The notes under the pieces: generated by a model | Seen by the model: only the letters and a program-made list of their open reading frames with translations | Databases searched by the model: none | Told to the model about the DNA's origin: nothing | Assembly: GCA_903877135.1 (NCBI GenBank) | Contig: CAIRCN010000020.1 | Span: 124,001-188,000, forward strand | Length of the DNA: 64,000 bases | Reading direction: 5' to 3' | Origin: an uncultured Opitutia bacterium | GTDB taxonomy: Bacteria; Verrucomicrobiota; Verrucomicrobiia; Opitutales; Opitutaceae | Part shown: positions 28,382 to 45,713 of the stretch, one piece after another | Layout: the number at the start of each line of letters is the position of its first letter | How positions within the stretch are numbered: position 1 is the first letter of the stretch | Position numbers and translations under genes: made by a program

Positions 28382-31300
28382 TCATGGTTGCGCCAACACC
28401 GCGCGGATTGTCTCCGCCAGGTCCGGCAAGAGAAAAGGCTTGGGCACCACGCCGCGGAAACCGTGCTCGCGGTGGTTCGCCAGCACCGGATCGGTCGAAT
28501 AGCCGCTTGAGACAATAGCTCGCACCTGCGGATCGAGCTTCAGGAGTTCCCGCATCGCCTGCAGCCCGCCCATGCCACCTGGCACCGTAAGGTCCAGCAT
28601 GACGACATCATACGGCCGGCCGGCTGCGCGCGCCGCCCCGTATTCGCGCACCACCGCGGCCCCGTCGGTGACGGCGGTGGCCTCCATGCCGAGCTGGTTT
28701 AGCAGTTCCTTGGCCATTTCGCAGATGCCTACCTCGTCATCCATGAACAGAATCCGTCCCCGGATGGGATCGAACGGCGAGTGGCTCGAGACCGGCGCCG
28801 CCGGCTCGGCCTGCGCGGCGGGCAGCCAGAGTCGGAATGTCGTGCCGCGCCCAAATTCAGACTCCACGGCGACATGCCCGCGGTGTTTCTTGATGATCGA
28901 ATAAACTGTCGCCAACCCCAGCCCCGTGCCCTGCTCTTTCGTGGTGAAGTAGGGCTCGAAAATCCGCGCGAGGTGCTCCGGCGCGATGCCCGTGCCGGTA
29001 TCGGCGATCGTGAGACTCAGGTAGCGGCCTGCCGCCAGCGGCCCAGGCGCGTCCTTGTCCACCTGGGCATTGCCCAGTGTCACGCGGATCACGCCGCCGC
29101 CCGGCATGGCCTGTGCGGCGTTGATGATCAGATTCTGCACCACCTGTCCGATCTGCCCCTTGTCGGCATTGGCGGGCCAAAGGGCGGCGTCCACCATGAA
29201 CTCGCAGCGCGCCGAGGAGCCGTGCAGGGCAAACTCCGCGGCTTCGCGCACGACCTCGGGCAGTTGCACCGCACTGCGCACGGGCTCGCCGCCCTTCGCA
29301 AAAGTCAGCAACTGCTGAGTGAGATCGCGCGCCCGGAGCGCGCCGCGTTCAGCTTCCTTCAGCCAACGGGCCGATTTTTCCGAACGCGCGGGATCCAGCT
29401 GCGCCAGCGTCAGGTTGCCCATGACGACTGCCATGATATTGTTGAAGTCGTGCGCGATGCCGCCGGCGAGCAGGCCCACTGCCTCTAGTTTCGAGGCCCG
29501 CAGGAGCTCCAGTTCGAGTCGCGCGCGCTCCGTCACATCGCGCAGCACCATCACGACACCGATGCCGCGACCGGCAGTGTCGTGCATCGGCGCACAGCGA
29601 CCTTCCACCAGAAGTTTGCCGCCGTGTTTCTGCAGCATGGCCGTGTGCAGAGGCAGATCCATCACGCGGTCCGCCGCCAGCACCGAGGCGACCGGGGCAT
29701 GCACCAGCACCCCGCTTTTTTCGTGTCGCAGGACGCAGACTTCGTCGATCGAGCGATTGATGGCCTCCGCCACCGTCCGACCGGTCAGTTCGCACGCCGC
29801 GTCGTTAATGAAACGGACGATCCCGCCCGGATCGACGGTGACGACGCCCTCGCTCATCGCACCCAGCGTCACCCGCAGCCGCTCACGCTTGGCGGCCAGC
29901 GCCCGCTCGACCGTCTTCACCTCCGTGAGATCGAGCAGGGCCAGTTGTGTGCGCTCGTAATACGGCCTGCCTTCGATGATCGGCACCCACCAGTGCGAAT
30001 GCACATGCCGCGCAGTGCCGTCCAAAACGCTCATGGGCAGTTCGTTCTCCGCCTCGATGCAGCCCTCCCACATCGCGAGGTAAATCCGGCGCCGGGCTCC
30101 GCTCACCTCAGCCGAGAACAAGCGCGGGTAACTCGCGATTAACTCCTCCGCCGAGTTGGCGGCATACAACCGCACCGCGGCATCGTTCGCCCCGACGAGC
30201 GGCGCCATCCGCAATGCTGACTCGAGTTCCTGGGGATTGGCGGCGAGATAAGCCGCCAAGTCTGTCACCCCCGCGGAGCGAAGCCCGTTCATCCACCCCA
30301 GCACCGGGCGATAGTCGAACTCGATGATCGCGATCGGTGAATGCTCGAAAAGCACCCGGTATCGCGTCTCGCTCCTACGCAGAGCCAGTTCGGCCCTCTT
30401 GCGCGCCGTGATGTCCGTCACGAAACCCTGCAAATACTCCAGCCGTCCCTCTTTGTCGCGCACCGCGCGCACATTTTCCGAAATCCAGATCTTAGTCCCG
30501 TCGCGGCGACACACTTCCGACTCGAAATCGGCGATATCGTTCCTGGCCCCCAGCTGGGCCAAAAACTCCTTGCGCCGTCCCGGCTGCACATAGAGGTGGC
30601 TGAATTCCTCCGGCTTCAGTTCCACCAGCTCTTGCGACGAGCCATAACCCAGCATGCGTGCCATCGCCGGATTGGTGCGCTTGAAACCGCCCTGCGGGAG
30701 CGATTCAAACACCCCCTCCACCGCCCCCTCGAACAACGCCCGGTAACGCTCCTCCGAAGTGCGCAACTCGCTCAGATCGGTGTAAGTCAGGAGCACCCGC
30801 GACAGGTCTCGCACCCCATGGTGCACCGGCACCATCCACTGAAAAATCCCGGACCAGGTCCTGAATCCCGGCGGAGCCAGCGTCGCCTCGGTGGTCAGCG
30901 TGTGCCGGCCAGTCCAAACGGCTTCGATCTCCCCCGGAAAAGTCGCCGGTGGCGCCACCTGCGCCAGCCGATGCACCGTGGCGGCAAATTCCGCCGTGTC
31001 CGCCACGCCGAGCATTTCCAGCGCCCGGCGATTTGCCGCCGTGAAACGGATGAGGGCAAAGAGTTCGCGCAGCAGCGCCGGCTGAGCCTCAAGCTGATGG
31101 CGAATGTTCATCACCCCGGCGGCCCGCAGTTCGTCGAGCCGGCGGACCACCGCCGAGAGATCCTCCTCGATCATCACCACCGGCGTGTTGTTGAACAGCG
31201 TGTGCCACTGCTCTTCGGATACACGGAGTTCGTCCAGACGCCGCCGCTGCACTTCGCGTAAAAGATACGCCAGCACCACCACCGCGACACCGGCCAGAGC

Positions 31301-31426
31301 CTCCAAAATCAGCTCGGCCATCAGCGCCCAATCCTTCCGCGGCACCTCCTCCACCGCCTGTGCCGCCCGAGCCACCGACACCAACGCTACGCTAAGCAGG
31401 AGGAAAAACAGTTGGGGCAGCTTCAT
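28382..31426 (-). CDS. Hybrid sensor histidine kinase with multiple PAS domains
   Basis: A 1014-residue kinase starting at the ATG at 31426 (MKLPQLFFLLLSVALVSVARA); the frame is open upstream but without sense. An N-terminal signal/first span and a second span (ILEALAGVAVVVLAYLL, about 40-56) precede about four PAS regions (roughly 70-190, 205-330, 340-460, 475-605). Then come HisKA with the phospho-His in GGIAHDFNNIMAVV (about 628), a HATPase domain (NLIINAAQAM, DTGTGIAPEHL, GTGLGLATVYSI) and a C-terminal receiver with MDDE and the phospho-acceptor Asp in VVMLDLTVPGG. It stands alone without a partner regulator; the signal is unknown. The first and third PAS regions are divergent in sequence. 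Confidence 0.92.
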   Translation of the reverse strand: MKLPQLFFLLLSVALVSVARAAQAVEEVPRKDWALMAELILEALAGVAVVVLAYLLREVQRRRLDELRVSEEQWHTLFNNTPVVMIEEDLSAVVRRLDELRAAGVMNIRHQLEAQPALLRELFALIRFTAANRRALEMLGVADTAEFAATVHRLAQVAPPATFPGEIEAVWTGRHTLTTEATLAPPGFRTWSGIFQWMVPVHHGVRDLSRVLLTYTDLSELRTSEERYRALFEGAVEGVFESLPQGGFKRTNPAMARMLGYGSSQELVELKPEEFSHLYVQPGRRKEFLAQLGARNDIADFESEVCRRDGTKIWISENVRAVRDKEGRLEYLQGFVTDITARKRAELALRRSETRYRVLFEHSPIAIIEFDYRPVLGWMNGLRSAGVTDLAAYLAANPQELESALRMAPLVGANDAAVRLYAANSAEELIASYPRLFSAEVSGARRRIYLAMWEGCIEAENELPMSVLDGTARHVHSHWWVPIIEGRPYYERTQLALLDLTEVKTVERALAAKRERLRVTLGAMSEGVVTVDPGGIVRFINDAACELTGRTVAEAINRSIDEVCVLRHEKSGVLVHAPVASVLAADRVMDLPLHTAMLQKHGGKLLVEGRCAPMHDTAGRGIGVVMVLRDVTERARLELELLRASKLEAVGLLAGGIAHDFNNIMAVVMGNLTLAQLDPARSEKSARWLKEAERGALRARDLTQQLLTFAKGGEPVRSAVQLPEVVREAAEFALHGSSARCEFMVDAALWPANADKGQIGQVVQNLIINAAQAMPGGGVIRVTLGNAQVDKDAPGPLAAGRYLSLTIADTGTGIAPEHLARIFEPYFTTKEQGTGLGLATVYSIIKKHRGHVAVESEFGRGTTFRLWLPAAQAEPAAPVSSHSPFDPIRGRILFMDDEVGICEMAKELLNQLGMEATAVTDGAAVVREYGAARAAGRPYDVVMLDLTVPGGMGGLQAMRELLKLDPQVRAIVSSGYSTDPVLANHREHGFRGVVPKPFLLPDLAETIRAVLAQP

Positions 31427-31534
31427 CACGAACCGAAGGGTATTTGCGGAGCCATAGCGCACAAAACCCGTGCGCACGTCAAACCGGATGCGCGGCTTGA
31501 CATTCGGCGTCGGCAGCCCGCCTTGGAATCCGCC

Positions 31535-32014
31535 ATGTCCACCAGCATCCGCCCCGCCGACCCCGACGACGCCGCGCTCATCCTCGCCTTCATCCGCGGC
31601 CTCGCGGACTACGAACGCCTTTCCCACGAAGTTGAAGCCACCGAGAAAAAACTCCGCGGCACGCTCTTTCCCGCGCACGGCCAGCCCGCCGCCGAGTGCC
31701 TGCTCGCCTTCGAGGGCGAAACCCCGGCTGGCTTCGCCCTATTTTTCACCAACTTCTCTACCTTCCTCGCCAAGCCGGGAATCTACCTCGAGGACCTCTT
31801 CGTCCAGCCTGCATTCCGCGGTCGCGGCATCGGCAAAGCTTTACTGCTGCACGTGGCCAAACTCGCCAATGCCCGCGGCTGCGGCCGCATGGAGTGGGCC
31901 GTTCTCGACTGGAACCAGCCTGCAATCGACTTCTACGAATCGCTCGGCGCCGAGCGCAAGACCGACTGGACCGTCTGCCGCCTGACCGGCGCAGCGCTCG
32001 CCCACTACGCCTGA
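31535..32014 (+). CDS. GNAT family N-acetyltransferase
   Basis: A 159-residue GNAT protein starting at the ATG at 31535 (MSTSIRPADPDDAALILAF). It holds the acetyl-CoA loop LFVQPAFRGRGIGKALLLHVAKLA and the segment RMEWAVLDWNQPAIDFYESLGAE, which groups it with diamine acetyltransferase-like (SAT-type) enzymes. It is divergent from the hybrid kinase. The true substrate is not known. Confidence 0.9.
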   Translation: MSTSIRPADPDDAALILAFIRGLADYERLSHEVEATEKKLRGTLFPAHGQPAAECLLAFEGETPAGFALFFTNFSTFLAKPGIYLEDLFVQPAFRGRGIGKALLLHVAKLANARGCGRMEWAVLDWNQPAIDFYESLGAERKTDWTVCRLTGAALAHYA

Positions 32015-32880: not shown

Positions 32881-33462
32881 ATGAAGCAAAACATCGCCAT
32901 TTTGATTTTCGACGACGTGGAGGTGCTCGACTTCGCCGGGCCATTTGAAGTCTTCGCCGTCATCGATGGGTTGCGCGGCCATGAGACGTTCAACGTCTTC
33001 ACCGTCGCGGAGGAGCTGCGCCCGGTCCGCGCCCGCCACGGCCTCAGTGTGAATCCTACCCACGACTTCGCCTCGTGTCCCGCGCCTCACCTGCTTGTGG
33101 TGCCGGGCGGCTTCGGCACCCGCGCGCTGTTGAAGAACGAATGTGTCCTCGCGTGGCTCCGCGCCCAGACCGCGCAGGCCGAAATCGTGATGAGCGTCTG
33201 CACCGGCTCGGTCGTGCTGGCGCAGGCTGGGCTGCTCGACGGTTTGCGGGCGACGACGCACCACACGTGTTTCGCCCTGCTCCGCGAGCACGCGCCGCGC
33301 ACCGAGGTCGTCGAGACGGACCGCTTTGTGGACAACGGCAAATTCCTGACCTCCGCCGGCATTTCCGCCGGCATCGACTGCTCGCTCCACGTTGTCGCAC
33401 GCCTGCTTGGCGCTGACGCCGCCGACCAGACCGCCCGCCACATGGAATACCGCCGCGCATGA
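32881..33462 (+). CDS. DJ-1/PfpI family protein
   Basis: A 193-residue DJ-1/PfpI domain protein starting MKQNIAILIFDDVEVLDFAGPFEVF at 32881. The nucleophile elbow reads VMSVCTGSVVLAQAG with the Cys at about position 106, followed by the conserved GLRATTHH segment and SAGISAGIDCSLHVV. This resembles the N-terminal domain of GATase1-type AraC regulators (FtrA-like) but lacks the DNA-binding part, like isonitrile-hydratase-type enzymes. Its stop overlaps the start of the EamA transporter gene by four bases. Confidence 0.88.
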   Translation: MKQNIAILIFDDVEVLDFAGPFEVFAVIDGLRGHETFNVFTVAEELRPVRARHGLSVNPTHDFASCPAPHLLVVPGGFGTRALLKNECVLAWLRAQTAQAEIVMSVCTGSVVLAQAGLLDGLRATTHHTCFALLREHAPRTEVVETDRFVDNGKFLTSAGISAGIDCSLHVVARLLGADAADQTARHMEYRRA

Positions 33463-34400
33463 ATTCCCCGCAAAATCTCCGCACCCCGCTCCTGCTCGCG
33501 TTCGCCGCGATCTATCTCATCTGGGGCAGCACCTACCTCGCCATCCGCGTGGCCGTGGAGTCGATGCCACCCTTTCTCGCCGCCGGGGCGCGCTTCATCG
33601 TGGCCGGCGCAATACTCGCCGGCTGGATCGCCGCGACGCGCGGCCTGCGCCCGACGGCGCGGCAGTGGCGCGACAACACCCTCGTCGGCCTCCTGCTTCT
33701 CGTCGGCGGCAACGGCATCGTCATGTGGGCCGAGCAGCGCATTCCTTCCGGCATCACCACACTCATCATCTCGTGCAGCCCGCTCTTTATGGTGATGATC
33801 GACTGGGCCGCGCTGAAACTCAGCCCGCCCGGCGCCTCGCGCGGCGCCCGCCCCTCCGTCGCCACGCTGATCGGCCTCGCCCTGGGTTTTGGCGGGCTTG
33901 TGCTCCTGATCACCGGGGCCTCGGCCACGGATGCTCCGGTGGATTTGTGGCGCGCGGGCGGTTTGCTTCTGGGCTCCGTCTCGTGGTCGCTTGGCTCGCT
34001 CTACTCACGCTACACACGCCAGCCAGCCGAGCCGCTCACTGCCGCGACACTCCAAATGCTCTGCGGCGGCGCACTCATGGTCTTCACTGGCGCGCTGCTG
34101 GGCGAACTGCGCGGCTTCGACGCCGCCGCAGTTTCGCGGCAATCCTGGCTCGCGTGGGGCTACCTCGTCGCCGCCGGCTCACTCGTGGCGTTTCCCTCCT
34201 ACGTCTGGCTGCTCAAGCACAGCACGCCCGCGCGCGTCTCCACCTACGCCTACGTGAACCCCATCGTCGCCGTTTTCCTCGGCTGGCTACTGCTGCGCGA
34301 ACCGGTCTCAGGCCGCACCATTCTCGCCGCCGCCGTGATCGTCGGGGCTGTCGCGATCATCACCACGCAAAAAGCCCGCCTCACCACCAAGAAAGCCTGA
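33459..34400 (+). CDS. EamA family drug/metabolite exporter
   Basis: A 313-residue membrane protein with ten spans in two EamA repeats (DMT superfamily), of the YedA type. It begins LLLAFAAIYLIWGSTYLAIRVAVESMPPFLAAGARFIVAG, the family's standard start, and repeats the pattern at GSVSWSLGSLYSRY and AYVNPIVAVFLGWLLLREPVSG. It likely exports amino acids or similar metabolites. The four-base overlap with the PfpI-like gene shows cotranscription. Confidence 0.92.
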   Translation: MNSPQNLRTPLLLAFAAIYLIWGSTYLAIRVAVESMPPFLAAGARFIVAGAILAGWIAATRGLRPTARQWRDNTLVGLLLLVGGNGIVMWAEQRIPSGITTLIISCSPLFMVMIDWAALKLSPPGASRGARPSVATLIGLALGFGGLVLLITGASATDAPVDLWRAGGLLLGSVSWSLGSLYSRYTRQPAEPLTAATLQMLCGGALMVFTGALLGELRGFDAAAVSRQSWLAWGYLVAAGSLVAFPSYVWLLKHSTPARVSTYAYVNPIVAVFLGWLLLREPVSGRTILAAAVIVGAVAIITTQKARLTTKKA

Positions 34401-34402
34401 CA

Positions 34403-34837
34403 ATGTCCACGCCTGCCATCGCCCTCGTCGAGTCCGACACCGACATAGCCCGCTGCTTTCCCGTGATGGCGCAACTGCGCCCGCACCTTCTGGAGGCCGA
34501 TTTCGTCGCCCGCGTCCGCCGCATGCAACGCGAGGGTTTCCATCTCGCGTTTCTCGCCGAAGATGGCGCCGTCCGCGCCGTCGCCGGCTATCGTTTTCAG
34601 GACAAACTTTTTTCCGGTAAAAATCTCTACGTCGACGACCTCGTCACCGCTGCCACCGCGCGCTCCCGCGGCCACGGCCGCACCCTCCTCGCGTGGCTCA
34701 TTGGACAGGCCCAAGCGCGGGGCTGCGACAACTTCGAGCTCGATTCCGGCGTGCAGCGGCACGACGCCCACCGCTTCTACCTGCGCGAGCGGATGAAGAT
34801 CGCGTCCTACCACTTCACGCTGCCGCTCACGCGCTGA
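34403..34837 (+). CDS. GNAT family N-acetyltransferase
   Basis: A 144-residue GNAT protein beginning at the ATG at 34403, two bases after the EamA stop. It shows AVAGYRFQDKLFSGKNLYVDDLVT, the acetyl-CoA loop ARSRGHGRTLLAWLIGQAQ and the C-terminal strand FELDSGVQRHDAHRFYLRERMKI. It is the third gene of the PfpI-EamA-GNAT operon. The end overlaps by eleven bases with the convergent isomerase gene. Confidence 0.88.
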   Translation: MSTPAIALVESDTDIARCFPVMAQLRPHLLEADFVARVRRMQREGFHLAFLAEDGAVRAVAGYRFQDKLFSGKNLYVDDLVTAATARSRGHGRTLLAWLIGQAQARGCDNFELDSGVQRHDAHRFYLRERMKIASYHFTLPLTR

Positions 34838-35591
34838 GCCACCCGCGCAACACCGCCGCGTCGCGCAGGAAACACTCCGGCGCATCGCGCTCGACGAATT
34901 CCAGCAGAGCATAGCGGTCGCCCGGCGCCTCCGCCGCCGCGGCGAGATAACTCCCCCACCTCTCCGCCCCCTCGCCGAGTGGCCGTCGCTCTGTGGTCGC
35001 CTGCCGCCACTGAAACACATGCACATTGGCCAGGTGCGGTAGCAACCCCCTCAGTCCCACCAAACTCGCCGCCGGCTCAAGATCCACCGGCGGTTGCCAG
35101 CAGGTCGCGAGATTCGCGTGCCCCGCCTCGCGCAGCAACCGGCCCGTCGATTCCGCGGTGTCGGTCAGCGTGCCTCCATGAAACTCCAGCACGATCCGCA
35201 CTCCGGTCGAGGCGGCCAGCGCGGCGATCCGCCGCAAATCCGCTGCCACGGCCGCGCGCTGCTCCGGCCGCGCCACCACCGAGCCCACCGTGCCCGCCCA
35301 CACCCGGATCGCCGGCGCGCCCAGCTCGACCGCCGTCTCCAGCACCCGCGCGAACGGCAGCCCGGCATTCTCACTCTCCCCGGTCCGGTAGTAACTGCCA
35401 TAAGCGGCCACATGCAGACCGGACTCGCCGGTCATCTCGCGCGTCTCGCGGGCCCGTCCGATTTCACCGTGCGGCACATGAATGTCGCCGCCCCACTCGA
35501 TCCCGCGCAGGCCCGCCTGCCGCACCAACGCTATCACCTCCGCGGGCGTGAGCTGGCGAAACGTGACCGAAACCAGTCCGGGATGAATCAT
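34827..35591 (-). CDS. Sugar phosphate isomerase/epimerase family TIM-barrel protein
   Basis: A 254-residue xylose-isomerase-like TIM barrel (AP endonuclease family 2 fold), starting at the ATG at 35591 (MIHPGLVSVTFRQLTPAEV). Metal-site residues are suggested by GIEWGGDIHVPHG, RIVLEFHGGTLTD, and VHVFQWR near the C terminus. The family includes inosose dehydratases and hexose isomerases; the substrate is unknown. It converges on the acetyltransferase gene. Confidence 0.85.
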   Translation of the reverse strand: MIHPGLVSVTFRQLTPAEVIALVRQAGLRGIEWGGDIHVPHGEIGRARETREMTGESGLHVAAYGSYYRTGESENAGLPFARVLETAVELGAPAIRVWAGTVGSVVARPEQRAAVAADLRRIAALAASTGVRIVLEFHGGTLTDTAESTGRLLREAGHANLATCWQPPVDLEPAASLVGLRGLLPHLANVHVFQWRQATTERRPLGEGAERWGSYLAAAAEAPGDRYALLEFVERDAPECFLRDAAVLRGWLSA

Positions 35592-35690
35592 GAGATCACG
35601 ATGACACTCCGCGCCCAGGCCGCCAAGTCTTCCGTGGCCGGCGCTTGCGCCGCGGCGAACCCTTGTCACCCTTTGCGGTCACACCGAGCC

Positions 35691-36146
35691 ATGAGACTGC
35701 CTACCCTCCTCCTTTCCGCCGCCTTGGGACTGGTGGTCTTCTCGGGCTGCGACACGTTTGAAAACCGGGCGAAGCAAAAGGCCGGCGTGGTGACCCAGCT
35801 CGACCCCAAGACCCGCGCGAAACTGGAGCGCGGCATCATCGAAATCGGCCAGACGCCGGATATGGTTTACCTCGCGCTCGGCACGCCAGACGACGAATAC
35901 GAGACCACCTCCTCCACTCACGGCAAGGAGAAGACTTGGATCTACAACGACTATCATCAGGAGTTCGCCGGCAATCACGAGACCGGTTACCGCCGCGTGC
36001 TGGTTTACGACAAGAATGCCAAGGGCTACGCCGTCTATTTGGAGCCGGTTTACACCAACGTCTACGTTGACCGCGCCGAGGAGAAGATCCGCATCACCTT
36101 CCGCGACTGCAAGGTCGCCGTCATCGAGCAACCCAAGGCACCCTAG
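35691..36146 (+). CDS. Small SmpA/BamE-like lipoprotein, first of an array
   Basis: A 151-residue lipoprotein with signal MRLPTLLLSAALGLVVFSGC (Cys20). The mature part has the block IIEIGQTPDMVYLALGTPDDEY followed by beta strands (TWIYNDY, RRVLVYDKN, KIRITFRDCKVAVIEQ). The G-x-T-x-x-x-V-x-x-A-L-G-x-P motif recalls the SmpA/OmlA/BamE fold. It is the most divergent member of four adjacent genes of similar design. Function unknown; probably in the periplasm, anchored to a membrane. Confidence 0.8.
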   Translation: MRLPTLLLSAALGLVVFSGCDTFENRAKQKAGVVTQLDPKTRAKLERGIIEIGQTPDMVYLALGTPDDEYETTSSTHGKEKTWIYNDYHQEFAGNHETGYRRVLVYDKNAKGYAVYLEPVYTNVYVDRAEEKIRITFRDCKVAVIEQPKAP

Positions 36147-36224
36147 CCACGACGTTCTTGCCTTCGCGCCCGTTCCAACTATTTTCCCCACGAGCTTTCC
36201 CAGCGTTTCCACCAAAAAAACAAC

Positions 36225-36731
36225 ATGAATAAATCCACCGCCATCACCCTTCTGGCGCTCGCGTTCGGCTTCGCCGGCTGCGGCTCCATGAGCACCATCG
36301 ACAGCCGCAGCAAAGAAATGAGTTCCACCTACGCCGCTGCTTCCGGCCGCGACAAAAACCTGATGAATCGCGGCCTCATCGGCCCCGGCTTCACGCCCAA
36401 CATGGTTTACATTGCCCTCGACAAGCCCGACTCCATGACGAAGTTGCCCGACGGCCATACTGAACGCTGGATTTACCGGAATTTCTCGGCCGACCCCGGC
36501 AGTTTCACCCTGGGTGCCACGAAGGTCGTGAGCGGCGGCAGTTTCAGCGGCGGATCGTCCACGAGCTCCAACCCGGGGTCCAGCAACAGTTCAAGCTCTC
36601 ACACTGGCACCGGCGCCGGCTCCGTCGGGACGCGCTCCGACGCGTCGCAGGCCGTCGATGCTTGGCAACGCAACCTCGTAGTCACCTTCACCGACGGCAA
36701 GCTCACCTCGATGGAGATGCTGCAAATGTAA
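36225..36731 (+). CDS. Small lipoprotein paralogue, second of the array
   Basis: A 168-residue lipoprotein with signal MNKSTAITLLALAFGFAGC (Cys19). It has the shared blocks GLIGPGFTPNMVYIALDKPD, ERWIYRNF and, after a Ser/Gly-rich linker (about residues 105-130), VDAWQRNLVVTFTDGKLTSMEMLQM. It is closest to the following gene: both share LALAFGFAGCGxMSTI and the TERWIYRNF block. The purine/AC-rich leader just before the ATG lacks a clear ribosome site. Confidence 0.82.
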   Translation: MNKSTAITLLALAFGFAGCGSMSTIDSRSKEMSSTYAAASGRDKNLMNRGLIGPGFTPNMVYIALDKPDSMTKLPDGHTERWIYRNFSADPGSFTLGATKVVSGGSFSGGSSTSSNPGSSNSSSSHTGTGAGSVGTRSDASQAVDAWQRNLVVTFTDGKLTSMEMLQM

Positions 36732-36785
36732 GCCGCAGTTGCCGGGTTGCGGGAAGTTGGTTATATTTCCTGCCATGATCCTCCC

Positions 36786-37319
36786 ATGAAAAAGACCGCC
36801 GCCCAGACCTTCCTCCTGGCGCTCGCGTTCGGTTTTGCCGGCTGCGGCACCATGAGCACCATCGCCAGCCGCAGCCAGGAGAAGAGTGCCAGCTTCTCCG
36901 CCGCTTCCCTCCGTGATCAACGCATCATGCAGCGCGGCCTCGTTGCCGCCGGCTTCACGCCCGACATGGTTTACATCGCCCTCGACAAGCCCGACACGGC
37001 CACGAAGATGCCCGACGGGCATACCGAGCGCTGGATTTACCGGAATTTTCCGCTAGACTCTGGCAGTTTTGTCATGGGAAAACAGAAAGTCGTGAGTGGC
37101 GGCCCGTTTGGCGGGGGCAGCGGCGGAGTTTCACCCACCAGACCTGCGGTGGTTGCGGGGCCCGGTGGCGTGGCTGCCAATGCCGGGGCCAGCAACGTGT
37201 CCGGCGGCTCCGTCGCCACGCGCGCCGACCCGTCGCAAGCCATCGACGCCTGGCAACGGCATCTCGTCCTCACTTTCACTGACGGCAAGCTCACCGCCAT
37301 GGAGCTGTTCGAGATGTAA
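36786..37319 (+). CDS. Small lipoprotein paralogue, third of the array
   Basis: A 177-residue lipoprotein from the ATG at 36786 with signal MKKTAAQTFLLALAFGFAGC. It repeats the array's core: GLVAAGFTPDMVYIALDKPDT, TERWIYRNFPLD, a Gly/Ser/Val-rich linker and IDAWQRHLVLTFTDGKLTAMELFEM. The high similarity to the preceding gene, at protein and apparently DNA level, points to a rather recent tandem duplication. Function unknown. Confidence 0.82.
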   Translation: MKKTAAQTFLLALAFGFAGCGTMSTIASRSQEKSASFSAASLRDQRIMQRGLVAAGFTPDMVYIALDKPDTATKMPDGHTERWIYRNFPLDSGSFVMGKQKVVSGGPFGGGSGGVSPTRPAVVAGPGGVAANAGASNVSGGSVATRADPSQAIDAWQRHLVLTFTDGKLTAMELFEM

Positions 37320-37370
37320 CCACCTGCCTCCGCAGAACGAGCCCAAGCCAGGCTCGTGACCTACCCGCCC

Positions 37371-37835
37371 ATGACACGGCTCTCCTTCGCTCTCCTCCTC
37401 GGCCTCGTGCTCAGCAGTTGCGCCACCGTCAGCACCGTCGAGCGGCGCACGCAGGAACGAAACGCCGCCTTCGCCGGCGCCAGCCAAGCCCAGCAGCGGA
37501 TCATGCGCCACGGCTCGATCGCCCCGGGCTTTACCGCGGACATGGTTTACATCTCGCTCGACCAGCCCAATCGCATCAACCGCGATTCCGGTGGCCGCCT
37601 CGAGCGCTGGTTCTACTACAACTTCGGCCACCACCCCGCCGCGTCCTACCTGGGTGGCGCCAAAGTCGACAATGTGAACCCAAATTCCACCCCAAAAGTG
37701 TCGTCGCGCAGTTACAACACCAGCGCCTACAGCACCCGCGCCGATCCCTCGCAGGCCGTCGATGCCTGGCAGCGCCACCTCGTCGTCACCTTCCTCGACG
37801 GCAAAGTCGTGACCATCGAGCTGTTTCAGATGTAG
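37371..37835 (+). CDS. Small lipoprotein paralogue, fourth of the array
   Basis: A 154-residue lipoprotein from the ATG at 37371 with signal MTRLSFALLLGLVLSSC. It keeps the core GSIAPGFTADMVYISLDQPN, LERWFYYNFG, a shorter linker and VDAWQRHLVVTFLDGKVVTIELFQM. It shares ATVSTVERRTQERNAAFAGAS with the pattern in copies 2 and 3. The four genes run in one direction with gaps of 78, 54 and 51 bases, so they may form one operon. Confidence 0.82.
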   Translation: MTRLSFALLLGLVLSSCATVSTVERRTQERNAAFAGASQAQQRIMRHGSIAPGFTADMVYISLDQPNRINRDSGGRLERWFYYNFGHHPAASYLGGAKVDNVNPNSTPKVSSRSYNTSAYSTRADPSQAVDAWQRHLVVTFLDGKVVTIELFQM

Positions 37836-37976: not shown

Positions 37977-38645
37977 ATGGCCAAGGCTGCCAAATCAAAA
38001 GCGCAGCGCGTGCTGCTAGTCGATGAGCACCCGCTGGTTCGCGTGCCGCTCGCCACCCTGATCAACGCCGAACTGGATTTCGTCGTGTGCGGGCAGGCTT
38101 GTAGCCGAACAGAGGCGTTGGCCGTCGCCCGGGTGAAATCGCCTGATCTGGCTGTCGTCGGCCTCGAGCTGCGTGATTCTCACGGCTTGGACCTGATCAA
38201 AGACCTGCACAGCCAGTGGCCCGATGTGGCGGTGCTTGTGTTGTCGGCGCTCGATGGGGACAACTGGGGCGAACGCAGCTTCCGGGCGGGCGCGCGCGGG
38301 TTCGTTTCCAAGACACAGCAACCAGCCGAATTGCTGACGGCCATGCGCCAAGTGCTGGCCGGCGAGTTTTATTTCAACAGCTCGGTGATCCAGCGCCTGG
38401 CCAAGCATCGGTCCAGCGCGGGCGATTTGACCACCCGCTTGGACGATCTACCGGACCGGGAATATCAGGTGCTCTGGTATATTGGGCACGGCTACGCGGT
38501 CAGAGAGATTGCCCAACGCTTGCGCGTTTCGGCGCCAACCGTTGAAACCTACCGCAACCGGCTCAAAGTTAAACTTGGTTGTGACGACCAAACGGACCTG
38601 TTGAAATGCGCCATCCAATGGGCGCACAGCAATTCGGAGGTATGA
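37977..38645 (+). CDS. LuxR/NarL-type response regulator with a degenerate receiver
   Basis: A 222-residue regulator with an N-terminal receiver (about 10-130) and a C-terminal LuxR-type helix-turn-helix (about 150-215, DLPDREYQVLWYIGHGYAVREIAQRLRVSAPTVETYRNRLKVKLG). The receiver retains the acidic pair (VDEHP, Asp16-Glu17) and the Lys112 (FVSKTQ), but the phospho-acceptor position, expected in PDLAVVxLEL, is Gly62. It therefore cannot be phosphorylated in the usual way. It is followed by a 232-base gap with two palindromes and by the giant HYR/MBG protein gene, which it may control. Confidence 0.9.
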   Translation: MAKAAKSKAQRVLLVDEHPLVRVPLATLINAELDFVVCGQACSRTEALAVARVKSPDLAVVGLELRDSHGLDLIKDLHSQWPDVAVLVLSALDGDNWGERSFRAGARGFVSKTQQPAELLTAMRQVLAGEFYFNSSVIQRLAKHRSSAGDLTTRLDDLPDREYQVLWYIGHGYAVREIAQRLRVSAPTVETYRNRLKVKLGCDDQTDLLKCAIQWAHSNSEV

Positions 38646-38877: not shown

Positions 38878-41800
38878 ATGTCCATGAAAACAAAATCCAC
38901 CCTCAGCTCCCGTTGGCACGGCCTCCGCTTGGTATCCCATGCGCGCACCTTGCTGGCTGTTTCCGCATTGGCCGCACTCGCGGTTCCCATTACCGCCAAA
39001 TCTCAAGTGGCGACCCAGACTCTCACTATCCTCGGTGGCAACGGCAACGCCGGCGCCATTGCGTCCAACGTGGAATACTTCAATCCCGTCACCCAGAACT
39101 GGCAGCCGGCTTACTTGGCGCAATTCTATAACGGACCCGGATTCAGCCAACCGATTTCCATGCACCCGTGGGGAAACATTTCAGGCACCAATCAGTGGAT
39201 CAATTACAGGGTGGATGGCCATTCCGACCCGGGCGCCGGTGTTCCCAATGGCACAAACAGCACCTTATGGTATCTCTATCGCGTGCGCTTCACTGTCCCG
39301 TCGGACGCAGTGAACCCCAAGATGACGTTTTCGATCAAGGCCGACAATTATGCGCAGGTCGCAATCAACGGCGTCACCACGGGTGGATCGACGCAGTATC
39401 TCAATAATACCTATATGAATAACGTGATCGTGGGCGCGGCCGATCAGCTGAACGCCGACGCGGTCTTCGCCCAAGCGGTGCATACCGGTGATAACACGAT
39501 CACCATCAACGCCGGTGACACCGGCGGGTTGAACGGCTTCAACTTCCGCATCGATTTGAGCATGCAGTCCAGCCAGCCGTTGGTCATCGTCCCGCCGGGC
39601 ACTCCGACGACAACGGTTTCCCCACCGGTCATCAGCCCCGTGCCGGCAGACATTACGGTCAACGCCACGAGCGCTGCGGGCGCTGTCGTCAACTGGAGCA
39701 CCCCGACCGCGTCGAGCGCGATCAGTTCGGAAATCTTCCGCCGCAAGACTGTGACCGCCGAGCCGTGGAAGGCCTACTCGGTCGTTTTCACGCCCACGAT
39801 CTCCGGCAACTTCAAGTTGCGCTTCCGCACGGTCTCGGACGACGGCTACGACAACACCTTCTTCATCGACGACGTGCACGTGATCGCGAATGCCACCAAC
39901 ACCGAACTCTTCCACTCCGGATTCGAACTGCCGACGGTGACCGACGCTCACTATGTCTCGTGGCTGAATACTACCACTGGCAGCCTGCTGTCCAACGAGC
40001 CATTCGGCGATTGGACGTTCACCAACTATAGCGGCGTGATTAACGGCAGCCCCGGCTCGTTTGGCGGCTCCGGACCACAAGAGGGCAGTCAGCGCGGATT
40101 CGTGCAGTCATTCTATGGCGTGCTCGGTAACGTCACCTCCGCGTCCTCCTTCTCCTTGGTCGCTGGCCAGACCTACACGGTCAAATTTTACCAGGCGACT
40201 CGCATAAACTTTGCCGGTAATCTCACCTACGCCGTCACGCTCGAAAGCACGGAATCCGATCCGGTCACGTTCACGCCCGCCTCGGGCAGCACCTTCACCG
40301 TCGGCACCACGAACGTCAGCCTCTCGGCGACGAATTCGGTCGGCGCGACCACGACCGGCTCATTCAACGTCACGGTCAAGGGCACGCCGCCCGTGATTTC
40401 GGCTTCCAGCCCCATCACTGTCGAGGCCACGAGTTCGGCGGGAGCTTCGGTTGCAGCTGCGTCCCTCGGCACGGCCACCGATTCCTACGGAGCCTCTTTG
40501 CCTGTCACCGCGAGCCCGGCCGGCCCGTATGCGATTGGAATCAACCAAGTCAATTTGAGCGCAACAGATGCGATAGGTCTGACGACGACAAAGCAAATCC
40601 TCGTCAACGTCGTCGACACGACGCCCCCGGTCATCAAGTTGCCGGATAACATCACCGCCGAAGCAACCAGTCCCACCGGCGCGACCGTGGCGTTCAGCGC
40701 GACCGCGCTGGACAGCGTCAGCAGCGGTCTCCCCGTCACGCTCACGCCGGCCTCGGGCAGCATGTTCCCGCTTGGAACCACGACGGTGAACGGGACCGCC
40801 ACCGATGCGGCGGGCAACGTCGCGACTGCTTCATTCACTGTCACCGTCCGTGACACCACGCCGCCGGTCATCTCGGTCACGACCGGAGCCGATTTCAGCG
40901 AAAACTTCTCCGGCTACACACCCGGCGCCGGCGCCACCAATACCCAATTCCAATCGGGCCTCACGGTGGGGTATCTCGGCAATATCCCGGGCTGGACGAA
41001 TGTCGGCGTGCACGCGGTTCATGCCGTCGACCTCGACGGTCACGGCAATTGGGCCGTCATGATCTGGCAGGACAACGTCATCACATCCACGCACACCACC
41101 GCGGATAACGCCAGCGGCGCCGACTACGTCGTGCACTTCAACGCTGGTCCGGCGGTCGATCAGATTACATCCCAACTCACCTCTCCGACCGATGGCCTGC
41201 TGATTCAGATTCTCCGCGCCGACAACACGGTGCTGAGCCAATTCACCTACCACCCCGGCGCATGGACCGGCGCGCCTGCACTGGTGCCGGTGAGTTTCCA
41301 CTACACCGGCGACGGCAGCGGCCTGCTGCACCTGAGCGTCGGCCCGTCGGCGCCGAACAGCAACCGTTTCGGCGGCACGATCGACGACATCAGCATCACG
41401 CCTTCAACGCCGGCAGACATCACGCTCGAGGCCACATCACCTGCTGGCGCGGTGGCGACCTTCGGCGCCGCGGCCCACGATCTTGTGAGCGGCGCGGTGT
41501 CGGTGACCGCTTCGTCGGCCAGCGGCAGCACCTTCCCGATCGGCACGACACCAGTCACGCTTACCGCCATCGATGGCGCGGGCAATAGCGCGACCGCCAC
41601 CTTCAACGTGATCGTCAAGGACACCACTCCGCCCGCGCTCACCGTGCCGAACAACGTCGTCGCCGAGGCCACCAGCGCCGCCGGCGCGGCCGTGACCTTT
41701 GCCGCCACTGCCACAGATGCCGTCACCACCAGCCCGACGATCACCTATGCGGTAAACGGAGTTGCGACAACTTCGGGCAGCACGTTCCCACTTGGCACCA

Positions 41801-43674
41801 CCACCGTGACCGTCACCGCCAAGGACGCCGCGGGCAACACGAGCACCGGCTCGTTCACCGTCACCGTGCGCGACACCAAGCCGCCGGTGATCACCGCGCC
41901 AGCCAACATTGTCACCGAGGCCACCAGCGCCGCCGGCGCGGTTGTGACCTTCACCGCCACCGCGAATGATCTCGTTGACGGCACTGTTGCCGTCTCCGCG
42001 AGTCCCGGGTCGGGCAGCACGTTTGCCCTCGGCACGACCACCGTCACGCTAACCGCGACCGATGCGCATGGCAACACTGCCACCAGCTCGTTCACCATCA
42101 CCGTGAATAAGGTGACAGCCCCCATCACACTATCGAATCTCAGCACGACCTACGATAGCACGGTGCAGTCCGCCGGCGCCACCACCACGCCGGCCGGGCT
42201 AACCGTGGTCTTCAATTACGTGGGCACGCCGCTCAACACCGGCAGCTACAATTTCACCGCGTCGATCGACGACCCCATCTACACCGGCTCGACCAATGGC
42301 ACGCTGGTGATCTCCCAAGCCGCGTCCTTTACGAAGACGGTCGGTGCGGGTCCGTTCACCTACAGCAGCAGCGCCCAGGTGGGCGGCTCGGGCACGGTGA
42401 TCGGAGCGGGAGGCCTCAGCACCAGCGCCACCTCCCTGACCTATTCGGCCAACGCTGATGGAACAGGAACGGCCGACCAGACCAATGCCGGGACCTACTA
42501 CGTGACCGCGCACTACTCCGGTGATGCCAACCACACGGCCAGCGACGGCTCGGCTGTGGCCATCAAGATCAACCAAGCCGCGTCTACCACGACGACGGGC
42601 GGTGCGGGTCCGTTCACCTACGACGGCACCACCCATGCCGGCGGCTCGGGCACAGTTGCTGGAATCAACCTCAGCACCAGCGCCACCTCCCTGACCTATT
42701 CGGCCAACGCTGATGGAACAGGAACGGCCGACCAGACCAATGCCGGGACCTACTACGTGACCGCGCACTACTCCGGTGATGCCAACCACACGGCCAGCGA
42801 CGGTCTCCCCGTGGCCATCACGATCATCAAGGCCACGTCCGCCACGACGACGGTCGGGGCGGCTCCGTTCACCTACGACGACACCACCCACGCCGGCGGC
42901 TCGGGCACGGTGACCGGAATCAACCTCAGCACCAGCGCCACCTCGCTGACTTACCTTGGCGACCAAATCGATGCGGGCAGCTATACCGTGACGGCGCACT
43001 ACTCAGGTGATACCAACCACACGCCCAGCGACGGTCTCTCCGTGACCATAACCATCAACCAGGCCACCGCGACGGTCGTGCCCGCACCTTACACCGTGAC
43101 GTATGACGGCAGTCCGCACACGGCGGGCTTCGCGATCACGGGCGTGAACAACGAGACGGGCGCCACCGTCGGCAACGTCACGCAGAACACGACGCACACC
43201 GATGTCGGCATCTACTCCGACACCTGGAGCTTCACGGGCACCCGTAATTACAGCAACATCGCCGCCACGGCGATCAAAGACACGATCACAGGCACCGCGA
43301 CCGCAAGCCTCGTCCCCGTGCGCAGCGGCGGGGACGACGAATCCACCCAGTCGTTCACCGTGGCCTTCTCCGCCACTGACCCGGCTGGCGTAAAAACGCT
43401 GGTGGCTAACCTGAACGGAGTCGCGGTGACCAATGGGCAAATCGTGCAGTTGCAGGTTATAAAATCTAGCGCGCAACGGATTGAGCGCGACGACGGCCGT
43501 CTGCATATCAGCGCGACGTCGTTCACGCTGACGGCGGTCGCCACTTACACCTATGGCGGCACCGCCACCGCGACGGCCGTGCCGGTGTTCAAAAAGAGCG
43601 GCCAGGACAGCGACACCAGCAAGAGCGCCAACTCCAATGACAGCAGCAGCAGCGACAAGAAAGGTGGCGGCTGA
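38878..43674 (+). CDS. Giant secreted HYR/MBG repeat protein
   Basis: A 1598-residue exported protein with signal peptide (hydrophobic stretch TLLAVSALAALAVPITAKS, to about residue 42). An N-terminal beta-rich region (45-245) is followed by about six HYR (hyalin-repeat, Ig-like) domains between 248 and 1078, marked by DTTPPVI, AEATSPAGA, GSTFPLGTTTVT and DAAGNxATxSFTVTV. Two other domains interrupt them (about 285-457 and 668-842), both jelly-roll-like and ending near FxxTIDDI or FIDDVHV segments. From 1079 to ~1477 come four or five MBG-type repeats (TYDGTTHAGGSGTV, TAHYSGDANHTASDG). The C terminus is a low-complexity Ser/Asp/Lys stretch; no known sorting signal is visible. It is probably a surface adhesin or matrix protein. 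Confidence 0.88.
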   Translation: MSMKTKSTLSSRWHGLRLVSHARTLLAVSALAALAVPITAKSQVATQTLTILGGNGNAGAIASNVEYFNPVTQNWQPAYLAQFYNGPGFSQPISMHPWGNISGTNQWINYRVDGHSDPGAGVPNGTNSTLWYLYRVRFTVPSDAVNPKMTFSIKADNYAQVAINGVTTGGSTQYLNNTYMNNVIVGAADQLNADAVFAQAVHTGDNTITINAGDTGGLNGFNFRIDLSMQSSQPLVIVPPGTPTTTVSPPVISPVPADITVNATSAAGAVVNWSTPTASSAISSEIFRRKTVTAEPWKAYSVVFTPTISGNFKLRFRTVSDDGYDNTFFIDDVHVIANATNTELFHSGFELPTVTDAHYVSWLNTTTGSLLSNEPFGDWTFTNYSGVINGSPGSFGGSGPQEGSQRGFVQSFYGVLGNVTSASSFSLVAGQTYTVKFYQATRINFAGNLTYAVTLESTESDPVTFTPASGSTFTVGTTNVSLSATNSVGATTTGSFNVTVKGTPPVISASSPITVEATSSAGASVAAASLGTATDSYGASLPVTASPAGPYAIGINQVNLSATDAIGLTTTKQILVNVVDTTPPVIKLPDNITAEATSPTGATVAFSATALDSVSSGLPVTLTPASGSMFPLGTTTVNGTATDAAGNVATASFTVTVRDTTPPVISVTTGADFSENFSGYTPGAGATNTQFQSGLTVGYLGNIPGWTNVGVHAVHAVDLDGHGNWAVMIWQDNVITSTHTTADNASGADYVVHFNAGPAVDQITSQLTSPTDGLLIQILRADNTVLSQFTYHPGAWTGAPALVPVSFHYTGDGSGLLHLSVGPSAPNSNRFGGTIDDISITPSTPADITLEATSPAGAVATFGAAAHDLVSGAVSVTASSASGSTFPIGTTPVTLTAIDGAGNSATATFNVIVKDTTPPALTVPNNVVAEATSAAGAAVTFAATATDAVTTSPTITYAVNGVATTSGSTFPLGTTTVTVTAKDAAGNTSTGSFTVTVRDTKPPVITAPANIVTEATSAAGAVVTFTATANDLVDGTVAVSASPGSGSTFALGTTTVTLTATDAHGNTATSSFTITVNKVTAPITLSNLSTTYDSTVQSAGATTTPAGLTVVFNYVGTPLNTGSYNFTASIDDPIYTGSTNGTLVISQAASFTKTVGAGPFTYSSSAQVGGSGTVIGAGGLSTSATSLTYSANADGTGTADQTNAGTYYVTAHYSGDANHTASDGSAVAIKINQAASTTTTGGAGPFTYDGTTHAGGSGTVAGINLSTSATSLTYSANADGTGTADQTNAGTYYVTAHYSGDANHTASDGLPVAITIIKATSATTTVGAAPFTYDDTTHAGGSGTVTGINLSTSATSLTYLGDQIDAGSYTVTAHYSGDTNHTPSDGLSVTITINQATATVVPAPYTVTYDGSPHTAGFAITGVNNETGATVGNVTQNTTHTDVGIYSDTWSFTGTRNYSNIAATAIKDTITGTATASLVPVRSGGDDESTQSFTVAFSATDPAGVKTLVANLNGVAVTNGQIVQLQVIKSSAQRIERDDGRLHISATSFTLTAVATYTYGGTATATAVPVFKKSGQDSDTSKSANSNDSSSSDKKGGG
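42414..42803 (+). repeat. 135-bp perfect direct repeat within the MBG region
   Basis: Bases 42414-42548 and 42669-42803 are identical over 135 bases, spaced by 255 bases, which equals one 85-residue protein repeat. The flanking parts of the same repeats differ. Perfect identity inside otherwise diverged repeats indicates recent duplication or gene conversion, and makes the region prone to slippage and to assembly collapse. Confidence 0.92.
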
Positions 43675-43904: not shown

Positions 43905-45713
43905 ATGCAAGAATCCCCCGCCGCTCCCCGCTCGCCCTGCGCCGAAGATGCGCCGGCCGCCCGCCTCCTCTCGCCCCGCCGCAAGACCACGCAGGCCACC
44001 ACGCTGCCCGGTCTCGCCCATGAGCAGCTCGAGCATTTCCACATCGACCCCGCCTCGCCCGTCGGCCAGCCGCTGCTCCGCCTCGCTGAGCGGCTCTACC
44101 ACGTCAACGACGACCTCACCGACCTCTGGGAAGTCACGTTGCGTGAGCTTGGCCGGCTCCCGCGCAGCGACCGCCTCGCGCTCTTCAACGCGAAAAAATT
44201 CCTCGCCTTCCAGTTGGCGAAGCTCCTCGACAACCTCCAAAACCCCACCCGCGCCGTTCACCAATCGCTCGGTCACTCGACCGCGACCACGCTCGCAAAA
44301 GGCCCCTACCCGACCTTCGACAACGTCGCCGCCATCTTCTCCGCCAACCCCGTCATCACCCGCACCGCGACCTACATCTTCGCCTGCGCCGAATGGATCG
44401 ACGACGCCTTCCAAGGCCGCGAATTCCTCCACGAGATCTACTCACGCCTCCTCAACCCCACCTCGATCTCGCTCGCCAACCACATCGTCGACATCGAGGC
44501 CGGCGCCATGTCGGCCGACTACATGGCGTGGAATTTCAACAGCGGCATGGCCGCCATCGACGGCGCTCTCTCGCACCTCGTCGGCTACGAGGATGTCGTG
44601 CTCTCCTCGCGCAACGTCTACGGCGGCACCTACCAACTCCTCCACGACTGGTATGCGAAAAAATCCAACCTCAACGTCGCCGTGGAGTTTTTCGACGGTG
44701 CCACGTCCGCCGATTTCGAGCGCGCTCTCGCCGACGCGAAAACAAAGCACGCCGCCCGCCTCGCCCGCGGCCGCGAGATTTACGTGCTGCTCGAGAGCCC
44801 GTGCAACCCCCACGGCGTCTTCCTCGACGTGCCCGCCATCTGCCGCGCCGCCCACGCCGCCGGCCTCACCGTGATGCTCGACGCCACCGTCGGCACGCCC
44901 TTCCTCGTCCGCCCGCTCCAGCGCCCCGACCCCGCCGAGCGCCCCGACTACGTCATCCACAGCTACACTAAGGACCTCACCGGCAGCGGCAATACCACTG
45001 CCGGCTGCGTCATCGGGCGCAACGCCGACATGTTCAAGGTGAAGGGCGAGCCCGGCTGGGAGCACACGATGTTTTGGAATGTTTACTACATCAAAGGTGC
45101 GTTCCTCGACGCCGACAAAGCCTTCGAAGTCCTCAGCGGCATGAAGACGCTCGAGATGCGCATGCTGAAGAAATGCATCAACACGCTCATCCTTGCCCGC
45201 TGGCTCGCCTCGCATCCGCAGGTGCATGTCAGCGGCCCGGCGAGCCCCCGCGACCCGAACCATGAAATCTGCGCCCGGCTCAGCTACCTCGGGCTGCCCT
45301 CGCCGCTCTTCACTATCGATTTCGAGTCCGCCGGCCTCGACCGCATGACGTTCGAGCGTTTCTTTGATTCGCTGTCGCCGATGTTCGGCCATCAGGTCAC
45401 CCTCGGCCAGGGCAACACCGTCGTCCTCTGCCCGGCGCTCACCTCGCACAGCGAACTCTCGCCCGACGCCCTGCGCGCCGCCGGCATCGCTCCGACGACC
45501 ATCCGCATCGCCGTCGGCGACGAGGACCCGCGCGAGCTCATCCGCGACTTCCTCGCCACCGCGCGCCTCGCCATCGACGCCGACGTGCCGGGCTTCACCG
45601 GCAAATTCCTCGCCGGCCCCGCCGTTGACCAGCTTGTGGACGACACCTACGTGGACATCCACCGCCGCCACACCGCCGCCCAGCCGCGCTTCGCCGATAT
45701 CTGCCGCGACTGA
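43905..45713 (+). CDS. Cys/Met metabolism PLP-dependent enzyme, long form
   Basis: A 602-residue fold-type I PLP enzyme of the cystathionine gamma-synthase / methionine gamma-lyase family. The PLP lysine is Lys356 in HSYTKDLTGSGNTTAG; SRNVYGGTYQLLHD, LESPCNPHGVFLDVP and MLDATVGTPFLVRPL are the substrate- and cofactor-binding strands. Family members are usually ~380-430 residues, so the first ~150 residues (helical, with LYHVNDDLTDLWEVTLRELGRLP) are an additional domain. The reaction is uncertain: gamma-lyase, sulfhydrylase and synthase activities share these motifs. The next gene on the other strand converges. Confidence 0.85.
   Translation: MQESPAAPRSPCAEDAPAARLLSPRRKTTQATTLPGLAHEQLEHFHIDPASPVGQPLLRLAERLYHVNDDLTDLWEVTLRELGRLPRSDRLALFNAKKFLAFQLAKLLDNLQNPTRAVHQSLGHSTATTLAKGPYPTFDNVAAIFSANPVITRTATYIFACAEWIDDAFQGREFLHEIYSRLLNPTSISLANHIVDIEAGAMSADYMAWNFNSGMAAIDGALSHLVGYEDVVLSSRNVYGGTYQLLHDWYAKKSNLNVAVEFFDGATSADFERALADAKTKHAARLARGREIYVLLESPCNPHGVFLDVPAICRAAHAAGLTVMLDATVGTPFLVRPLQRPDPAERPDYVIHSYTKDLTGSGNTTAGCVIGRNADMFKVKGEPGWEHTMFWNVYYIKGAFLDADKAFEVLSGMKTLEMRMLKKCINTLILARWLASHPQVHVSGPASPRDPNHEICARLSYLGLPSPLFTIDFESAGLDRMTFERFFDSLSPMFGHQVTLGQGNTVVLCPALTSHSELSPDALRAAGIAPTTIRIAVGDEDPRELIRDFLATARLAIDADVPGFTGKFLAGPAVDQLVDDTYVDIHRRHTAAQPRFADICRD

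Follow-up and report, generated by a model that had tools for sequence, protein, structure and literature searches.

Comparison with described systems

The described proteins closest to the four lipoproteins considered here are BamE (SmpA/OmlA; PF04355), which is single-copy in E. coli, the lipoprotein OsmE, and BLIP, a secreted two-domain β-lactamase inhibitor without a lipid anchor. Further points of comparison are TpgA, a periplasmic partner of an outer-membrane barrel according to PMC13082670, and a group of immunity proteins that PMC12419801 describes as membrane-anchored, BamE-like in fold, and fast evolving. The four genes, referred to as copies 1 to 4, stand in tandem at positions 35691-37835 (+ strand) of a 64,000-nucleotide stretch of DNA (the window) from an uncultured Opitutia bacterium (assembly GCA_903877135.1, contig CAIRCN010000020.1, positions 124,001 to 188,000), whose genome comprises 4.23 Mb in 87 contigs. 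An initial annotation had described them as four consecutive lipoprotein genes, and the exact span, the strand, and a signal peptide with lipobox in each were confirmed. It had also taken all four for one local expansion, which did not hold: copy 1 is orthologous and syntenic to an old, Opitutaceae-wide gene (group B) and not a diverged member of the array, and only copies 2-4 make up a local tandem expansion, of a younger BamE-like subfamily (C/D).

With BamE, the window copies share the lipobox, the motifs G-x-T-x-x-x-V-x-x-A-L-G-x-P, W-x-Y, and F-x(4)-V (read against E. coli BamE) and, in the predicted models, a helix/β core, for which most E. coli BamE rows showed 25-28% identity over 64-69 structurally aligned residues. 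Unlike BamE, they are multi-copy, fall below the Pfam cut-off, and have a β2-β3 loop that is predicted to be enlarged to a hairpin arm or a disordered linker. OsmE is likewise a lipoprotein of similar fold (4dm5, Z 5.9 and 6.2), but a sequence link was undetectable (hhalign 1.9%; 4.7 bits with the family profile, a score matched by 33 of 5000 shuffles). BLIP and BLIP-like proteins contain a similar α/β core unit (Z 3.8-6.6), whereas the window copies have a single domain and a lipobox. The immunity proteins (BtiO, 9uu1, and the PMC12419801 family, which was compared by its description) resemble the copies in their anchored BamE-like fold, but no adjacent toxin was seen here among the 17 genes scanned. 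Finally, the N-terminal domain of TpgA (TpgA-N, 9vnj) has a similar core by structure; its additional peptidoglycan-binding domain has no counterpart in the window copies.

Organization of the tandem genes

The genes and their variable segments are as follows, with the basis of each assignment in brackets.

35691-36146, + strand: copy 1, group B lipoprotein of 151 aa, a conserved syntenic Opitutaceae gene (open reading frame (ORF), orthologous loci, synteny, tree)
35952-36074, + strand: part of the predicted long β-hairpin arm of copy 1, residues ~88-128 (AlphaFold2; inferred core/arm boundary)
36225-36731, + strand: copy 2, C/D-type lipoprotein of 168 aa (ORF, whole-genome search, C/D profile, tree)
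36486-36656, + strand: Ser/Gly-rich linker of copy 2 (sequence, alignment)
36786-37319, + strand: copy 3, C/D-type lipoprotein of 177 aa (ORF, whole-genome search, C/D profile, tree)
37050-37244, + strand: Gly/Ala/Ser/Val-rich linker of copy 3, predicted disordered (AlphaFold2 predicted local distance difference test (pLDDT) 39-49 in the ten-residue blocks 91-150)
37371-37835, + strand: copy 4, C/D-type lipoprotein of 154 aa (ORF, whole-genome search, C/D profile, tree)
37626-37760, + strand: Asn/Ser-rich linker of copy 4 (sequence, alignment)

The ORFs are consecutive and contiguous, separated by 78, 54, and 51 nt, and the lipoboxes, identified by eye, read FSG|C, FAG|C, FAG|C, and LSS|C from copy 1 to copy 4. 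The initial annotation had assigned one common plan to all four proteins. This stood for the lipobox, the G-x-T-x-x-M-V-Y-x-x-L block, and the W-x-Y block, but the Ser/Gly linker, the DAWQR-LVVTF-DGK block, and the terminal Met are confined to copies 2-4. The sequence of copy 1 runs GQTPDMVYLALGTP ... WIYNDY ... IRITFRDCKVAVIEQPKAP and ends in Pro, with no low-complexity linker, DAWQR block, or terminal Met. When copy 2 was searched against the whole genome, the best other places were copies 3, 4, and 1 (E 1.6e-64, 5.3e-32, and 1.3e-7), and three more paralogues appeared elsewhere in the genome. Judged by sequence, the homology among the four copies is far above chance. At the DNA level, a 300-nt repeat with 79% identity connects copies 2 and 3, and a 118-nt C-terminal repeat (74-81%) is common to copies 2, 3, and 4.

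Copy 1 carries Asp at position +2 after the lipidated Cys (35748-35753). A scripted count of the +2 residue over 159 family sequences gave S 67, Q 22, A 19, E 14, N 14, D 11, and others 12. A foreign origin was rejected as far as composition is concerned, the copies having a GC content of 0.60-0.64 compared to 0.633 for the window, and promoter and terminator patterns were about as frequent as in shuffles (1 vs. 0.7 and 4 vs. 3.5).

Two ancestries among the tandem genes

The separation of copy 1 from the others rests on a careful tree of 59 members, hand-chosen from a 159-row set. In this tree, each of the groups B, A, C/D, and E was set apart by a single branch, supported at 96/89, 98/89, 96/87, and 100/99, respectively. 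Copy 1 was placed as sister of the group B gene of G001, a relative from the same genus as the host (100/98), while copies 2, 3, and 4 formed one clade with the single G001 neighbour (100/99), copies 2 and 3 being the closest pair (99/94). Forcing copies 1-4 into one clade cost 95 log units (p 0.0003 in the approximately unbiased (AU) test), and forcing copies 1-4 and both G001 genes into one clade cost 36 log units (p 0.009). A quick tree of the 159-row set, from which rows without a recognised lipobox or shorter than 100 residues had been dropped, agreed on the placement of copy 1 and of copies 2-4. Four equal copies of one expansion are thus ruled out by the tree and the AU test. The earlier remark that the first copy is the most divergent is correct as a description, but the tree and the AU test put copy 1 in a different orthologous group.

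The C/D subfamily is narrowly distributed. A C/D-specific profile found it in 8 of 252 genomes of the bacterial family (E ≤ 4.3e-46, the next match being 2.4e-30), which belong to 3 of 49 genera (g1, g62, and g19). It is a single gene in all five g19 genomes and forms arrays of several copies in the two other genera, with three copies in the host and nine in G001. Since C/D-type copies run off two G001 contigs (L041 and L042, at the ends of contigs C115 and C105), the true arrays of G001 are probably larger than assembled.

Group B genes were also found in one record labelled Gammaproteobacteria (L130) and in two labelled Akkermansia muciniphila (L138 and L143). L130 and L138 are nested in group B of the 159-row tree, from which L143 is absent, and these bins may be mislabelled.

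Predicted fold and remote homology to BamE

The AlphaFold2 model of copy 1 reached a mean pLDDT of 94.1, with helices at residues 23-29, 31-36, 39-46, and 56-63 and strands at 68-74, 78-107, 112-138, and 141-146. The two long strands (78-107 and 112-138) form the predicted hairpin arm, with block pLDDT of 97-98. For copy 3, the core was mostly above 90 and showed corresponding helices and four short strands, interrupted by the low-scoring blocks of the linker. The models thus suggest that the β2-β3 loop, short in BamE, has become a hairpin arm in copy 1 and a disordered linker in copy 3, and a long flexible linker probably takes its place in copies 2 and 4 as well.

In the Z-scored structural comparison of copy 1, 25 of 31 rows lay at Z 3.5-6.6, and all of these were BLIP, OsmE, BamE, TpgA-N, or BtiO, with unrelated chains from Z 3.4 down. 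Foldseek placed BamE (E 0.23) and a BLIP-like protein (E 0.50) in the first two rows for copy 1, and BamE, OsmE, BLIP, or TpgA-N in the first 11 of the best 50 rows for copy 3 (E 0.18-1.4).

Sequence profiles pointed in the same direction. A 51-row family profile including signal peptides gave 16 BamE matches among 18 in the PDB, the best at E 1.6e-4. Without signal peptides, 16 of 17 matches were still BamE (mostly E. coli constructs and therefore few independent sequences), but at E values of just 0.32-1.4, so the former value is partly owed to the signal peptide. Mature E. coli BamE scored 12.9 bits with the family profile, which none of 5000 shuffles reached (best shuffle 9.3). The BamE-domain protein of a relative (L063), which is over the PF04355 cut-off, scored 32.1 bits with the family profile and, by its sequence, appears to be a bridge between PF04355 and the lipoprotein family; other relatives over this cut-off (L058, L059, and L061) scored 8.7-11.3 bits. 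In the reverse search, 10 of 80 listed PF04355 matches, all below the cut-off, fell on places homologous to copy 3.

The BamE/SmpA-like core proposed in the initial annotation was therefore borne out by the profile comparison with BamE, the shuffle test, and the AlphaFold2 models, although no single Foldseek match was significant; in the predicted structures, the copy 1 model and the copy 3 core match BamE, OsmE, and BLIP. Because of the fold matches, the shuffle test, the L063 bridge, and the scores below the cut-off, we regard the family as BamE-like by predicted fold and remote homology rather than as a member of PF04355.

Distribution and naming of the family

With a family profile built up from the four copies (A2, 51 relatives), members were detected at E ≤ 1e-3 in 106 of 120 genomes belonging to this bacterial family, and at E ≤ 1e-5 in 107 of 240 genomes from a sample of the phylum Verrucomicrobiota. 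Of the 106 genomes, 99 hold one to five members each, and higher numbers were found in G077 (6), the host and G127 (7 each), G016 and G062 (8 each), G131 (9), and G001 (13). All copy numbers are lower bounds, because only the best 32, 16, or 14 candidates per genome were scored (in the 120-, 240-, and 252-genome sets, respectively) and many genomes are drafts. A scripted lipobox pattern was present in 161 of 176 distinct family sequences; among the remaining 15, six are cut-off pieces and nine have a Cys that the script overlooked. In G131, three tandem family genes (L199, 2764-4987) have a long insert that does not resemble the other linkers and apparently represent an independent expansion.

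A named family for the four copies was looked for and rejected. None of them was over the cut-off in Pfam (best chance match E 0.15) or NCBIfam, and there was no match in PADLOC. Scans of 77 family members at E ≤ 0.01 returned stray matches: one scan, against Pfam, gave BamE in one member (E 7e-4) and the unrelated YadA_anchor, DUF5796, and PCC in one member each, and another gave GWxTD_dom in two members and csrA in one. Among the titles listed in searches of the open-access literature, none dealt with this lipoprotein family. On the sequence evidence, the four copies belong to a Verrucomicrobiota BamE/SmpA-OmlA-like family that is unnamed in Pfam and NCBIfam, as the initial annotation had supposed. 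What is new here is this unnamed BamE-like family across the phylum, its remodelled loops, and its repeated tandem growth.

Proposed role

The best explanation, in which we place modest confidence, is a BamE-like one, with copy 1 as a housekeeping outer-membrane lipoprotein and copies 2-4 as accessory paralogues, acting in barrel assembly or stability. We infer the membrane location, partner, and function of the four proteins as follows. Each protein would be exported, lipidated at the Cys of its lipobox, and held at the periplasmic face of a membrane. Its compact helical/β domain bears the BamE motifs, and the β2-β3 loop would form a stiff hairpin arm in copy 1 and, in copies 2-4, a linker that is long and flexible. 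Copy 1 could dock on BamD, or on a different partner in the outer membrane, and thereby help in β-barrel insertion or stability, while copies 2-4 might use this docking domain with different partners or in different conditions, their linkers acting as weakly constrained spacers.

The host genome contains matches to BamA (E 8.6e-56) and to a BamD-like protein (E 1.1e-14) and no PF04355 protein over the cut-off. BamE is reported absent from verrucomicrobial methanotrophs by BlastP (PMC10542722). The group B gene would therefore be a reasonable candidate for the BamE-like job. A phylum-wide BamE-like family below the reach of Pfam would, in general, offer candidates for the missing accessory factor. 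Its repeated tandem amplification with a remodelled loop can be seen as a natural experiment on how a small fold gains partners, be it in barrel assembly, adhesin anchoring, or immunity.

Several observations weigh against this explanation. No LolA match was found in the host genome, and an Asp at +2, as in copy 1, is an inner-membrane retention signal in E. coli. With seven family members in the host and 13 in G001, the family is unlike the single-copy BamE, and the neighbour listings showed no recurring outer-membrane-protein neighbour pointing to a client. None of the four copies is named by a Pfam or NCBIfam model, and PF04355 peaks at 12.7 bits in the host genome (in one paralogue) compared to a cut-off of 23.2. 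The hhalign alignment to BamE spans 21 columns at a probability of 54% (P 1.3e-4), and that to OsmE has a probability of 1.9%. For neither copy 1 nor copy 3 was there a Foldseek match at E < 0.001; the remaining rows of the best 50 for copy 1 were other proteins, and in the Z-scored comparison of copy 3, four other chains were mixed in at Z 5.0-5.5. Z values of 5-6.6 may stem from a common arrangement.

Copies 2-4 may be accessory adaptors or anchors for outer-membrane proteins, immunity proteins, or near-neutral dosage copies.

Divergence, selection, and alternative explanations

Copy 1 differs from its G001 orthologue by a nonsynonymous divergence (dN) of 0.23 at a synonymous divergence (dS) of 0.87 and, by these values, is under ordinary purifying selection. 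Within the array, the rates were calculated by gene part, that is, over short stretches and with an uncertain alignment of the linker. Between copies 2 and 3, dS and dN were 0.34 and 0.18 in the first core part, 0.94 and 0.66 in the linker, and 1.37 and 0.12 in the C-terminal part. The linker gave dN 0.72 and dS 0.65 for copies 2 and 4 and dN 0.99 and dS 0.93 for copies 3 and 4, whereas the C-terminal part had dN 0.12-0.18 at dS 0.66-1.37 among copies 2-4. These values suggest a linker close to unconstrained and a constrained C-terminus. As dS is uneven along the genes, being low in the first core part of copies 2 and 3, and as the 118-nt C-terminal repeat is common to copies 2-4, gene conversion is hinted at among these copies (36248-37835). 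The diversifying function that the initial annotation had suggested receives weak support: the linkers do diverge, but dN close to dS fits a loss of constraint as well as diversifying selection.

The same data bear on the possibility that the array is nearly neutral, its tandem duplicates being born and lost by unequal crossing-over without a function beyond dosage. The linker ratios near 1, the mosaic similarity with its hint of gene conversion, and the differing number of copies beside group B within one genus (one in G001, three in the host) agree with it. However, the three ORFs are intact and have kept the lipobox, the motifs, and the C-terminus, the latter at the low dN given above, and multi-copy C/D arrays occur in two genera. 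We consider near-neutrality unlikely on balance.

A more far-reaching version of the BamE-like explanation, which we regard as rather unlikely, is that the conserved hairpin-armed member replaces BamE at the β-barrel assembly machinery (BAM), while the amplified branches with disordered linkers are partner-specific adaptors or provide immunity to periplasmic toxins. If true, Verrucomicrobiota would have made a multi-member toolkit from an ancestral BamE-like lipoprotein.

Copies 2-4 and similar arrays elsewhere could also be orphan tandem arrays of BamE-like periplasmic immunity lipoproteins directed against lipid-directed toxins of competitors. According to PMC12419801 (2025), a rapidly evolving, membrane-anchored BamE-like family is the most widespread newly found immunity protein against Lipocone toxins. 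The type VI secretion system immunity protein BtiO (9uu1) ranked fifth for copy 1 and third for copy 3 in the structural comparison (Z 5.7 and 5.8), but with an rmsd of ~6 Å, it aligned more poorly than most BamE rows. The patchy occurrence of C/D and its varying copy number within one genus would suit such a role. However, a scan of 7 genes of the window and of 10 genes located next to arrays or single copies elsewhere detected no toxin domain (5 of the 10 being without any match), which makes this reading less likely, and PADLOC gave no match. Furthermore, the core is under purifying selection, with drift mainly in the linker. Taken together, immunity is improbable as the role of these arrays.

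Genomic neighbourhood and synteny

The genes around the array are as follows.

33459-34400, + strand: EamA transporter, recurrent near group B (window gene scan, locus comparison)
34830-35594, - strand: xylose-isomerase-like TIM barrel (PF01261), oriented divergently to copy 1, a conserved group B neighbour (window scan, locus comparison)
37977-38645, + strand: LuxR-type response regulator, behind the array and ahead of the PLP gene (window gene scan)
38878-43674, + strand: HYR/MBG repeat protein of 1598 aa, also behind the array and ahead of the PLP gene (window gene scan)
43905-45713, + strand: Cys/Met-metabolism pyridoxal phosphate (PLP) enzyme, immediately behind group B in some relatives that lack the array (window gene scan, locus comparison)

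The locus comparison covered the best 80 of 121 loci. It used a group-B-only alignment and was thus aimed at group B, so that C/D copies located elsewhere would be missed; many of the 80 loci end too near group B to show both flanks. By name, the records of group B relatives are mostly Opitutaceae or Verrucomicrobia, largely metagenome-assembled genomes. The setting of group B consists of the divergent TIM gene alongside, EamA upstream, and the Cys/Met PLP enzyme behind, and at ≥100 bits in blast these were present in 11, 23, and 12 of the best 80 loci, respectively. The PLP open frame starts 4-126 bp behind group B in six loci and 0.96-3.6 kb behind it in six more. In the window, the array, the LuxR-type regulator, and the HYR/MBG protein intervene. 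Among the same 80 loci, the G001 record is the only one in which group B is followed directly by another family gene; in L113, a second family ORF lies ~3.2 kb off on the opposite strand, and 78 loci show one member.

In G062, a genome consisting of one contig, a four-copy C/D array stands directly before the PLP gene. Beyond that gene follows an SSF symporter, and EamA, TIM, and group B are found in rearranged order 3-5 kb away on the other side of the array. The adjacency of array and PLP gene in two genera therefore suggests that it is older than this genus. No recurrent partner gene of the arrays was recognised by eye in the neighbour listings, from which 10 neighbours were Pfam-scanned.

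Copies 2-4 might also serve particular large surface proteins as dedicated lipoprotein chaperones or anchors, in the way that TpgA-N serves the adhesin AtaA, with the HYR/MBG protein as a conceivable client in the host. We consider this very improbable: TpgA-N (9vnj) did turn up in the structural comparison (Z 4.9 and 5.0) and the HYR/MBG gene lies in the same group B-PLP stretch, two genes downstream of the array, but this protein was unmatched at E 1e-8 in the compared loci and at 1e-5 in six C/D loci, the G062 array directly beside the PLP gene lacks it, and Pfam shows no β-barrel anchor in it.

In the 1598-aa protein itself, four HYR stretches are accompanied by an MBG domain, and its end is rich in Ser, Lys, and Gly. 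In the g19 locus L241, the C/D gene adjoins an FtsX-like permease, homologues of which also adjoin C/D in L242 and L245. On the - strand of the window, positions 28385-31678 encode a hybrid histidine kinase that has a receiver domain in addition to its PAS domains.

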